Part shown: piece after piece, positions 50,335 to 57,576 of the stretch | Layout: each line of letters starts with the position of its first letter | Position numbering within the stretch: the first letter of the stretch is position 1 | Origin: Burkholderia sp. Bp8992 | Lineage (GTDB): Bacteria; Pseudomonadota; Gammaproteobacteria; Burkholderiales; Burkholderiaceae | Length of the DNA: 64,000 nucleotides | Direction: 5' to 3' | NCBI RefSeq assembly: GCF_003853705.1 | Contig: NZ_QTQI01000002.1 | Coordinates: 466,464-530,463, forward strand | The notes under the pieces: generated by a model | What the model was told of the DNA's origin: nothing | The model's database searches: none | The model's input: the letters and a program-made list of their open reading frames with translations, nothing else | Translations under genes and position numbers: made by a program

Positions 50335-51030
50335 ATGGACCAAAGAAAAACCGCCACACGCGCCGAGCCCCCCCTGCCACGCACCTGGGATGCGCGGCTC
50401 GCGCGCTCGCTCGTGCGACCGCTCGTCGATACGCCGGTCACCCCGAATCACCTCACTACCCTGCGTCTGCTGATCGGCCTCGCCGGCGCCTGGTGCCTCG
50501 CGCACGGCGGCTTCGGCTGGAGCAATGCCGGTGCGTTCCTGATCGTGCTGTCGAACTTCGTCGACCACACCGACGGCGAACTCGCGCGCATCAGCGGCAA
50601 GTCCAGCAAGATCGGTCACTTTTACGACCTCGCGGCCGATGCGCTCGTGACGGTCGCGCTGTTCGTCAGCATGGGCCTCGGCATCGTCGCCCAGGGCGGC
50701 CAGATGGCCGCGTCGCCGGTGCTGCTCGGCGCGGTGGCCGGTGCGGCCGTCGCGCTGATCTTCTTCCTGCGCATGCGGATCGAATCGATCGCCGGCAAGG
50801 CCGGCACCAAGCAGGCGTTCGCCGGCGGCTTCGAGACCGAAGACGTGCTGTACCTGCTGCCGATCGTGACGCTCGTCGACGGCGTCGAGCCGTTCCTGCT
50901 CGCGGCGTCGATCGGCGCCCCGCTGTTCGCCGCCTGGGTCGTGATCGACTGGTGGCGCATCGTCCGCCGCGGCAACCTTCCGCAGAACCCGGCCGCGCAG
51001 AACCCAACCGAAATCCAGGCTTCCAAATGA
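50335..51030 (+). CDS. CDP-alcohol phosphatidyltransferase, first gene of phosphonate operon
   Basis: A 231-residue membrane enzyme. It has the complete CDP-OH motif D-x2-D-G-x2-A-R-x8-G-x3-D-x3-D (Asp77, Asp80, Asp98, Asp102). Such enzymes transfer a group from a CDP-activated donor to an alcohol or lipid. In this operon the donor is plausibly CMP-2-aminoethylphosphonate, which would place the phosphonate head on a lipid. That is inference. Its stop overlaps the next start (ATGA). Confidence 0.85.
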   Translation: MDQRKTATRAEPPLPRTWDARLARSLVRPLVDTPVTPNHLTTLRLLIGLAGAWCLAHGGFGWSNAGAFLIVLSNFVDHTDGELARISGKSSKIGHFYDLAADALVTVALFVSMGLGIVAQGGQMAASPVLLGAVAGAAVALIFFLRMRIESIAGKAGTKQAFAGGFETEDVLYLLPIVTLVDGVEPFLLAASIGAPLFAAWVVIDWWRIVRRGNLPQNPAAQNPTEIQASK

Positions 51031-51836
51031 CTCCTAGCACGCGCGACGACTCCGTGCTGAGCCCGGCACGCCCCGCGCCCGTGCGCGCGGCCGCGGCCGA
51101 TCCCGATCGCACCGTGGCCGACCGTGTCGGCCAGCTCGACCTCGACCGCCTGCGCGGCGACTACACGCGCCAGGGCTCGTTCCTGTACCTCGACGCCTTC
51201 CTGCCGGCCGACGCGCACGCAAAGCTGGCGGATGCCGCCCGCGCGATGCAGGCCGGCCTGAACCGCAATTACCTGCCCGGCCACAAGCAGGGCGGCAGCG
51301 TCAGCCGCCATACGATCGACGAGCAGGCGCCGTACATCGCCGAACTGTATCGCTCGAAGGCACTCATCTCGTTCCTCGAGAAGGTCACGGGCGACAAGCT
51401 GATGCTGTCGCCGGACGACGATCCGCACGCGTACGCGCTGTATTACTACACGAAGCCCGGCGACCACATCGGCTGGCATTACGACACGTCGTACTACGAC
51501 GGCCGCCGCTACACGCTGCTGATCGGCGTGATCGACGAATCGTCGTGCCGGCTCGACTACGAGCTGCACACGCGCAACCCCGACGTGCCCGACGAACCGG
51601 GCTCGGTGCAGATCGCCGACGGCGGCATCGTGCTGTTCGACGGCGACAAGCTGCGTCACCGCATCACACCGCTCGGCCAGAACGAGATACGCGTGTCGCT
51701 CACTTTCGAATACGTGACGAACCCCGGCATGCGGCCGTGGAAGCGCTTCATCTCGAACATGAAGGACGCGATCGCGTATTTCGGTTTCCGCCAGGTGTTC
51801 AAGCAACTGGCTACGCGGCGCACGACCGGGTCATGA
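51027..51836 (+). CDS. Fe(II)/2-oxoglutarate-dependent oxygenase
   Basis: A 269-residue cytoplasmic oxygenase. The iron triad is His151-x-Asp153 (GWHYD) and His211 (LRHRITP); Arg222 probably binds 2-oxoglutarate. It could hydroxylate the phosphonate carbon or a lipid chain, as 1-hydroxy-AEP is known in some phosphonolipids. Coupled on both sides by ATGA overlaps, so it belongs to the pathway. Substrate inferred only. Confidence 0.82.
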   Translation: MTPSTRDDSVLSPARPAPVRAAAADPDRTVADRVGQLDLDRLRGDYTRQGSFLYLDAFLPADAHAKLADAARAMQAGLNRNYLPGHKQGGSVSRHTIDEQAPYIAELYRSKALISFLEKVTGDKLMLSPDDDPHAYALYYYTKPGDHIGWHYDTSYYDGRRYTLLIGVIDESSCRLDYELHTRNPDVPDEPGSVQIADGGIVLFDGDKLRHRITPLGQNEIRVSLTFEYVTNPGMRPWKRFISNMKDAIAYFGFRQVFKQLATRRTTGS

Positions 51837-55319: not shown

Positions 55320-56512
55320 TCGAAGCGGCCCAGTTCGTCGAGGCCGCGCGCGAACGCGGCTTCGACTGGTACGCGGGCGTGCCCTGCTCGTACCTGACGC
55401 CGTTCATCAACTACGTGCTGCAGGACCCGACGCTGAACTACGTGTCGGCCGCGAACGAAGGCGACGCGGTCGCGCTGATCGCCGGCGCAACGCTCGGCGG
55501 CAAGCGCGGGATCGCGATGATGCAGAACTCGGGGCTCGGCAACGCGGTGAGCCCGCTCACGTCGCTGACCTGGACGTTCCGCCTGCCGCAACTGCTGATC
55601 GTCACGTGGCGCGGGCAGCCGGGCGTCGCCGACGAGCCGCAGCATGCGCTGATGGGCCCGATCACGCCCGCGATGCTCGACACGATGGAGATCCCGTGGG
55701 AGACGTTCCCGACCGACCCCGAACAGGTCGGCCCGGCACTCGACCGCGCGATCGCGCACATGGATGCGACGGGCCGCCCGTACGCGCTCGTGATGCAGAA
55801 AGGCAGCGTCGCGCCGTATGAACTGAAGGCGAACCCGGCCGCGCAGCCGCGCGCGCATGTCGCCGCGCAATCGTCGTCGGGCGCCGCGTCGGCCGATGCA
55901 TGGCCGACCCGCCACGACGCATTGAAGCGCGTGATCGCGCACACGCCGGTCGATTCGACCGTCGTGCTCGCGTCGACCGGTTTCTGCGGCCGCGAACTCT
56001 ACGCGCTCGACGATCGCCCGAACCAGTTGTACATGGTCGGCTCGATGGGCTGCGTGACACCGCTCGCGCTCGGCCTCGCACTCGCGCGCCCCGACCTGCG
56101 CGTGGTGGCCGTCGACGGCGACGGCGCCGCGCTGATGCGGATGGGCGTGTTCGCGACGCTCGGCACTTATGGCCCGGCCAACCTCACGCACGTGCTGCTC
56201 GACAACGGCGCGCACGAATCGACGGGCGGCCAGGCAACGGTGTCGCAGCATGTGTCGTTCGCGGGCGTCGCTGCCGCGTGCGGCTATGCGTCGGCGGTCG
56301 AAGGCGACACGCTCGACGTGCTCGATACGACGCTGGCTGCGACGGGCGACGGGGTCCGGCCATCCGGTGTGCAATTCGTACGCGTGGCGATCCGCACGGG
56401 CGTGCCCGACGGCCTGCCCCGCCCGACCGTCACGCCGGTCGAGGTGAAGACCCGTCTGATGCGGCACATCGGCGCCGCGCAGACCGAAGCCCACGTTGAA
56501 GGAGCCCATTGA
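55316..56512 (+). CDS. ppd: Phosphonopyruvate decarboxylase
   Basis: A 398-residue ThDP enzyme that decarboxylates phosphonopyruvate to phosphonoacetaldehyde, driving the unfavourable PEP mutase step forward. The N-terminal Pyr domain has the catalytic-type glutamate in [11 protein letters not shown]; the PP domain has the ThDP/Mg motif [14 protein letters not shown]. Coupled to pepM (ATGA) and to the transaminase gene (TGATG). Confidence 0.93.
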
Positions 56513-57576
56513 TGCTGCTGCTGAACCCCGGCCCGGTCACGCTCACCGAACGCGTGCGCCGCAGCCTGCTGCAACCCGATCTGTGCCATCGCGAAAGCGA
56601 ATTCTTCGATCTGCAGGATGAGGCGCGTGCGCGCCTCGTCGCCGCGTACGAGCTCGATCCGGCCGAATGGGCCGCCGTGCTGATGACGGGGTCGGGCACG
56701 GCCGCCGTCGAGAGCATGATCGCGGCGCTCGTGCCGCAGGACGGCAAGCTGCTCGTGATCGAGAACGGCGTGTACGGCGAGCGGATCACGCAGATCGCGA
56801 CGCAGTACGGTATCGCGCACGACGTGTTGAAGCATGAGTGGATGCAGGCGCCTGATCTCGCGCAGATCGGTGCAAAGCTCGATGCGGGTGGGTACACGCA
56901 TGTCGCTGTTATTCATCATGAAACGACGACGGGCCGGTTGAATGATCTCGGCGCGATCGCTGAAGTCTGCCGTTCGCGTGGCGTGAAGATGCTCGTTGAT
57001 GGCGTCAGCAGCTTCGGCGCGGAAGCGATCGATTTTGCCGGCGGCGATATCGATGCTGTGGCTGCCACCGCGAACAAGTGCCTGCATGGTGTGCCGGGTG
57101 CGGCGTTCGTGATCGTGCGACGTAGCGCGCTGGCGAAGGCTGCGAGTCGTACTTACTACCTCGATCTCGGGCGGCTTGCGAAGCTGCAGGATCAGCGGAA
57201 TACGCCGTTCACGCCGTCCGTGCATGCGTATTATGCGCTCGTCGAGGCGCTGCGCGAGTTCGATGAGGCTGGCGGCTGGCGTGCGCGCCATGCGCATTAC
57301 AAGGCGCTGGCCGATCAGGCTCAGGCGGGGCTGGCTGCGCGTGGGATGCCGCTGGTGCTGCCGGAAGGTGAATCGTCGGTTGTTCTGCGTGCGTACCGGC
57401 TGCCGCAAGGCGTCACGTACGAGACGCTGCACGACGGGTTGAAGGCGCGCGGCTTCGTGATCTATGCGGGGCAAGGCGGGTTGTCGAAGGAACTGTTCCG
57501 GATTTCGACGATGGGCGCGATTCAGGCGGCCGATGTCGAGCGGTTGCTGGAAGGGTTTACGGCGTTGACGCGGTAA
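56512..57576 (+). CDS. phnW: 2-aminoethylphosphonate transaminase
   Basis: A 354-residue PLP aminotransferase of the PhnW family. Lys189 in ATANKCLHG binds PLP; the N-terminus LLNPGPVTLTERV is diagnostic. In a cluster with pepM and ppd it runs toward synthesis, turning phosphonoacetaldehyde into 2-aminoethylphosphonate. A GGAG precedes the ATG, which shares one base with the ppd stop. From about codon 105 onward codon use changes to many T- and G-ending codons, unlike the rest of the operon. Confidence 0.93.
   Translation: MLLLNPGPVTLTERVRRSLLQPDLCHRESEFFDLQDEARARLVAAYELDPAEWAAVLMTGSGTAAVESMIAALVPQDGKLLVIENGVYGERITQIATQYGIAHDVLKHEWMQAPDLAQIGAKLDAGGYTHVAVIHHETTTGRLNDLGAIAEVCRSRGVKMLVDGVSSFGAEAIDFAGGDIDAVAATANKCLHGVPGAAFVIVRRSALAKAASRTYYLDLGRLAKLQDQRNTPFTPSVHAYYALVEALREFDEAGGWRARHAHYKALADQAQAGLAARGMPLVLPEGESSVVLRAYRLPQGVTYETLHDGLKARGFVIYAGQGGLSKELFRISTMGAIQAADVERLLEGFTALTR

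Follow-up and report, generated by a model that had tools for sequence, protein, structure and literature searches.

The operon at positions 50335-57576 of a 64,000-nucleotide stretch from Burkholderia sp. Bp8992 (the window) raises the question of what becomes of the 2-aminoethylphosphonate (AEP) that it appears to make. Seven open reading frames lie there on the + strand, co-directional and mostly overlapping, with 4-base overlaps at five of the six junctions (when the last gene is taken with a TTG start) and a 35-base gap at the remaining one, as expected from the initial annotation of this DNA, which had proposed a seven-gene operon building an AEP lipid. The gene families are consistent with a phosphonolipid; however, the annotation named as activating enzyme a domain that our comparison does not support, and it missed a tie to hopanoids that is visible only in relatives of the window. 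Hopanoids are bacterial counterparts of cholesterol (sterol analogues) and are used as molecular fossils. On balance, we favour the view that AEP, or hydroxy-AEP, passes from cytidine monophosphate (CMP) to a hopanoid side chain and is then flipped. Among plasmid-collection records, Burkholderia arboris (93.6% over 100% of a 16 kb query) and B. cenocepacia (92.9%) came closest to the window, which most likely belongs to the B. cepacia complex. Genome, genus and family labels used below (G, g and, for loci, L) are those of the genome collection used.

The synthesis of AEP would be covered by the last three genes. Gene 5 (53634-55319), a phosphoenolpyruvate (PEP) mutase, PepM, whose fused MobA-like domain has a variant signature, scored 406.4 bits with TIGR02320 (cut-off 319.55) and contains the PEP mutase motif EDKXXXXXNS; gene 6 (55316-56512), a phosphonopyruvate decarboxylase, scored 481.5 bits with TIGR03297 (cut-off 312.5); and gene 7, an AEP aminotransferase that begins at 56509 (TTG) or 56512 (ATG) and ends at 57576, scored 399.3 bits with TIGR03301 (cut-off 360.8). 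With all three enzymes above curated cut-offs, the assignment of pepM, ppd and phnW to the AEP route stands, and their identities are sound. Fusions of PEP mutase to nucleotidyltransferases have already been published, as has the separate enzyme PntC (PMC6697681, cited here and below from excerpts).

The first and third genes encode membrane-associated families. Gene 1 (50335-51030) matched PF01066 (CDP-OH_P_transf) with 55.3 bits (cut-off 22) and carries DHTDGELARISGKSSKIGHFYDLAAD, the full D(x2)DG(x2)AR(x8)G(x3)D(x3)D motif of the cytidine diphosphate (CDP)-alcohol phosphotransferases, so that family match and complete motif both support the annotated CDP-alcohol phosphatidyltransferase with all motif residues. 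No NCBIfam equivalog reached its cut-off with this protein (the best, NF040950, gave 61 of 180 bits), a PHROGs search returned no match, and the solved relatives are only distant (AF2299, E 4.7e-6). Gene 3 (51833-52834), annotated as a flippase-like membrane protein, scored 98.6 bits with PF03706 and 372.6 bits with TIGR03476 (HpnL; cut-off 195.65); it belongs to the HpnL family and is more than a generic flippase. The HpnL name alone was rejected as proof of a hopanoid link, because G007, G001, G002, G022 and other genomes carry one or two further TIGR03476 genes over the cut-off, approximately 32-35% identical to gene 3, and the three loci of such copies that were fetched (L131-L133) had no hpn neighbours.

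The operon is widely conserved. A strong match to the PepM fusion was present in 37 of 37 same-genus genomes (in three pieces in G015), the fusion not being found in one further same-genus genome (G273), and all eight query pieces, representing the seven genes, occur in the same order as in the window in 17 loci from 17 family genomes; because of this retention and shared order, the arrangement is more than chance. Among 249 family genomes, the oxygenase encoded by gene 2 was found in 145, belonging to 11 of the 25 genera, and the PepM fusion in 141: 140 genomes have both, 5 the oxygenase only, 1 PepM only and 103 neither (these sets, like those for HpnH below, were compiled by hand from search tables). 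Two of the oxygenase-only genomes (G195 and G222) are visibly decaying, as is the PepM-only genome (G259), and the other three (G124, G263 and G284) retain genes 1-4. In genus g44 the operon lies in two blocks, one with genes 1-4 and the other, elsewhere, with genes 5-7; a gene 4 stump is left beside pepM in two genomes (L092 and L093), and the phnW match in G143 is no more than a fragment. Both halves have usually been kept after the split, which argues for a single pathway encoded by genes 1-4 and 5-7.

Within the family, the oxygenase occurs only together with HpnH, which begins the building of the C35 side chain of hopanoids. HpnH exceeded its cut-off in 174 of 249 genomes, and a strong match (E below 1e-50) was obtained in 175, including a fragment in G259. 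Every one of the 145 oxygenase-positive genomes belongs to these 175, and the oxygenase is absent from the other 74. Linkage is more telling than co-occurrence for the hopanoid tie, and hpn genes adjoin the operon in five of the eleven family genera examined (g35, g32, g31, g39 and g40; L070 was left out of this count). In g35 and g32 the operon is continued by dxs, hpnN, hpnH, hpnA, hpnB, an hpnG-like gene and shc, and in g31, g39 and g40 hpnN lies beside it (HpnN in L057, from g40, scored under the cut-off since the stretch is cut). In Mycetohabitans rhizoxinica HKI 454 (NC_014718.1) a single block extends from hpnD to gene 1, in the annotated order hpnD, shc, a hypothetical gene, a glycosyltransferase, hpnA, hpnH, ispH, a transporter protein, an MMPL transporter (the HpnN match), two hypothetical genes, dxs, the AEP aminotransferase, aepY, aepX, a phosphocholine cytidylyltransferase-family protein, an LPG-synthase-domain protein, a 2-oxoglutarate (2OG) oxygenase and a CDP-alcohol phosphotransferase.

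The same association was observed outside the family. Homologues of gene 1 (E 1e-12 or better) were found in 21 of the 369 genomes of the class sample, and 20 of these 21 carry a PepM fusion, PepM having been searched for in these genomes only and not in the 348 gene-1-negative ones; the exception, G297, is 75% complete. In a phylum sample, PepM matched in 17 of 398 genomes at E 1e-70, unfused relatives included. A scan of genome contigs with a distant gene 1 gave a single locus, from the named record of a genome already included. We examined 19 of the 20 gene-1-bearing class genomes outside the window's genus (G620 was left out), and 15 of them, representing 10 of 11 families, have an accepted hpn neighbour of the gene 1 homologue. 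This count omits L165, which has an HpnA-like fragment (204 of 368 bits), and includes HpnN in L172 and HpnJ in L171, both under the cut-off since the stretch is cut. The order hpnN-gene1-hpnA, all in one direction, occurs in G297, G317, G409, G524, G568 and G630, and hpnI-hpnJ-hpnL-gene1 in G535; in six genomes (G630, G380, G317, G568, G409 and G498) AEP and hpn genes lie in the same fetched stretch. HpnH was over its cut-off in all four class genomes in which the oxygenase matched strongly. As a control, none of eight PepM loci without gene 1 (seven genomes of other classes) had hpn neighbours, two of the control genomes (G921 and G970) carrying HpnH elsewhere. HpnI exceeded its cut-off in only three of nine co-clustered genomes, which neither helps nor hurts the case much. 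L084 and L162 (G630 and G409) also contain a second, more distant CDP-alcohol phosphotransferase inside the same hopanoid-phosphonate cluster.

Transfer by gene 1 would require activated AEP, and two MobA-like proteins are candidates for this step. The initial annotation had named the PepM-fused domain for an assay with AEP and cytidine triphosphate (CTP); CMP activation as such is supported, whereas the choice of this domain is not. All 41 fusions compared, among them relatives from other classes with 50-56% identity, lack the catalytic Arg of GXG(T/S)R and have G, E, N, A, D or Q in its place. We thus rejected the fused domain as the AEP cytidylyltransferase. Its PK is retained in 41 of 41, and, because most fusions carry an Arg three residues earlier, the domain may be an altered rather than a dead enzyme. 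In contrast, gene 4 (52870-53637), a MobA-like nucleoside triphosphate transferase, has as its best sequence match in the PDB the PntC of Treponema denticola (Tde-PntC; 6pd1/6pd2, E 1.7e-11, residues 2-246), the structure of which contains CMP-AEP (PMC6697681). Residues R15, K25 and K153 of Tde-PntC were found to be important (PMC6697681); they align with R13, K24 and K156 of gene 4, which are kept in 32 of 32 gene 4 loci with a match of E 1e-25 or better. Of the two amine-contacting residues of Tde-PntC, read by eye, E104 aligns with D105 of gene 4, the LicC residue type, and E196 falls beside a gap in the alignment. When the operon is split in g44, gene 4 remains in the transferase block and the fused domain remains with PepM. 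On its PntC match and the three retained catalytic residues, gene 4, and not the PepM-fused domain, is the likely AEP cytidylyltransferase, which changes the domain to be assayed for CMP-AEP synthesis.

Gene 2 (51027-51836) is supported as an Fe(II)/2OG oxygenase and carries hydroxylase-type ligands. It matched PF23169 (HalD/2OG-Fe(II) family) with 48.9 bits and is related to lysine hydroxylases and halogenases, its similarity to the BesD model being far under the cut-off (29.6 of 450 bits). H151, D153, H211 and R222 are invariant in comparison with a 49% identical relative, and the metal motif is HYD, that is, HxD; in the halogenases BesD and HalD this motif is HxG or HxA. A canonical halogenase was thus rejected, and HxD together with the four invariant residues points to a hydroxylase type, which is where gene 2 differs from the BesD/HalD lysine halogenases/hydroxylases of the same protein family. 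The step looks like optional tailoring, since several related clusters (G409 and G498) have no oxygenase and G568 retains only a 23-residue match. A 33-34% identical oxygenase in G357 and G552, with the rest of the operon lacking from the fetched stretch and no HpnH over the cut-off, was not counted as a system.

From the gene identities, motifs, order and conservation, and from the proximity of hopanoid genes in relatives, we infer how the reactions in Burkholderia sp. Bp8992 may run. The PEP mutase, decarboxylase and aminotransferase encoded by genes 5-7 would convert PEP to AEP, and the stand-alone PntC-like gene 4 would activate AEP to CMP-AEP. Gene 1 would then move the phosphonate headgroup, in the membrane, to a side-chain hydroxyl of a hopanoid, the acceptor being bacteriohopanetetrol or its sugar- or cyclitol-capped forms. 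Gene 2, acting on AEP or on the AEP lipid, would add a hydroxyl to the headgroup, most simply giving 1-hydroxy-AEP, and gene 3, as an HpnL-family protein, would move the product across the membrane. That the acceptor is a hopanoid seems to us a little better than an even guess.

Several observations weigh against this assignment of the acceptor. A tblastn search with hpn queries found no hpn genes in the window, and none adjoin the operon within the fetched stretches of g1 (the window's genus), g27, g34, g41, g44 and g49. Outside the family, no hpn neighbour was accepted for four of the 19 class loci (G300, G374, G408 and G502); only a partial HpnA-like protein is near in G408, and the only such neighbour in G502 is of the HpnL family. 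The co-occurrence with HpnH at family level is confounded by descent, and the oxygenase is lacking in 30 family genomes in which HpnH matched strongly. In the three g44 genomes G124, G263 and G284 (L117, L118 and L119), genes 1-4 look whole and PepM was not found in the genome. The top scores of gene 1 were for CDP-diacylglycerol-type phosphotransferase models, although far under their cut-offs. Moreover, a covalent link does not follow from clustering, and an AEP lipid may be the partner of hopanoids and not a hopanoid itself.

This last point leads to a reading that we hold less likely but a serious rival, in which diacylglycerol receives (hydroxy-)AEP from CMP through gene 1, in the manner of the Kennedy pathway, and the resulting glycerophosphonolipid works beside hopanoids, so that the genes cluster without a covalent link. 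Enzymes of the gene 1 family are known to work on lipid headgroups, gene 3 is weakly similar to lysyl- and glucosaminyl-phosphatidylglycerol flippases, the operon and the hpn genes lie apart in the window's own genus, and lipids with AEP and hydroxy-AEP exist, as reported for Bdellovibrio stolpii (PMC8154272, in excerpt). However, the arrangements hpnN-gene1-hpnA and hpnI-hpnJ-hpnL-gene1 put gene 1 among genes for hopanoid export and side-chain synthesis, and a co-occurrence with HpnH in 145 of 145 genomes also speaks for a hopanoid acceptor.

Attachment of AEP to a glycan or a lipid A-like acceptor, and not to a simple lipid, is distinctly unlikely: the operon contains neither a glycosyltransferase nor a LicD-type transferase, and its transferase is of a membrane-lipid family, even though the published Pnt gene clusters are mostly tied to surface glycans (PMC6697681) and the glycosyltransferases HpnB or HpnI are near in some relatives. 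We regard a soluble secreted phosphonate as very improbable. Other pepM clusters of Burkholderia do yield soluble phosphonates, such as flavophos (PMC12871164, in excerpt), but the present operon holds integral-membrane transferase and flippase families, and its near-universal conservation in the genus is unlike that of a variable natural-product cluster.

Compared with known systems, the operon resembles the Pnt pathway of the T. denticola and Atopobium rimae PntC enzymes in having a PepM-MobA-like fusion, ppd, an AEP aminotransferase and a separate PntC-like enzyme; unlike that pathway, which has LicD-like or glycan machinery, it has a CDP-alcohol phosphotransferase, and it adds the oxygenase, an HpnL-type flippase and the link to hopanoid genes (PMC6697681). 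The hydroxy-AEP sphingophosphonolipid of B. stolpii (Watanabe 2001, via PMC8154272) shares the proposed hydroxy-AEP lipid headgroup, but its acceptor is a sphingolipid and not a hopanoid, a comparison of described products and not of genes; hydroxy-AEP lipids have also been postulated for other bacteria (PMC8154272). In Roseomonas, a hopene cyclase gene is linked to PEP mutase, and the authors suggest an undiscovered terpene-phosphonate (PMC8776678), which is prior art for the general idea of a PEP mutase-hopanoid connection. As in the relatives of our operon, a PEP mutase gene is tied there to hopanoid genes; set beside the operon by description only, those clusters come from a few Alphaproteobacteria, and the available excerpts name no transferase, cytidylyltransferase, oxygenase or flippase. 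The hpn clusters have an HpnL-family protein in common with the operon, and in relatives hpnN, hpnA, hpnH, shc, hpnI or hpnJ adjoin it. No AEP step is known to us in any hpn pathway. What hpnA, hpnB and hpnL do has yet to be established (PMC12583986, in excerpt). Within titles, beginnings of abstracts and excerpted passages, subscription papers being outside the scope, we recognised no description of an AEP-bearing hopanoid or of the product of this operon.

If a hopanoid is indeed the acceptor, a single gene set would explain the purpose of the widely conserved AEP genes of the Burkholderiaceae and would account for some hopanoid-cluster genes of unestablished function, namely HpnL and the companions of HpnA. 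A headgroup with a C-P bond would be added to those of hopanoids, and a candidate transferase, activating enzyme, hydroxylase and flippase would be named. Whether Burkholderiaceae and several other proteobacterial families make such phosphonohopanoids with a (hydroxy-)AEP headgroup, installed by an unnamed CDP-alcohol phosphotransferase of the hopanoid cluster and moved by HpnL-family proteins, is in our judgement evenly balanced.

Directly before the start codon of gene 1, an element of approximately 45 bases (50288-50334, + strand) is nearly invariant among 22 aligned same-genus rows, two of which are repeats of one genome. It has TATATT approximately 6 bases before the gene 1 ATG, and no ribosome-binding site is evident in it, making it a candidate leaderless promoter.

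After the operon, the gene at 57626-58450 contains a PA3715 family domain (149 bits, cut-off 70) and takes the place in which several relatives have dxs after phnW. Further downstream, on the - strand at 62924-63949, there is a weak match to the antibacterial effector domain Tle3_C (22.6 bits, just under the cut-off of 23), and G+C drops to 58% in the stretch around it.

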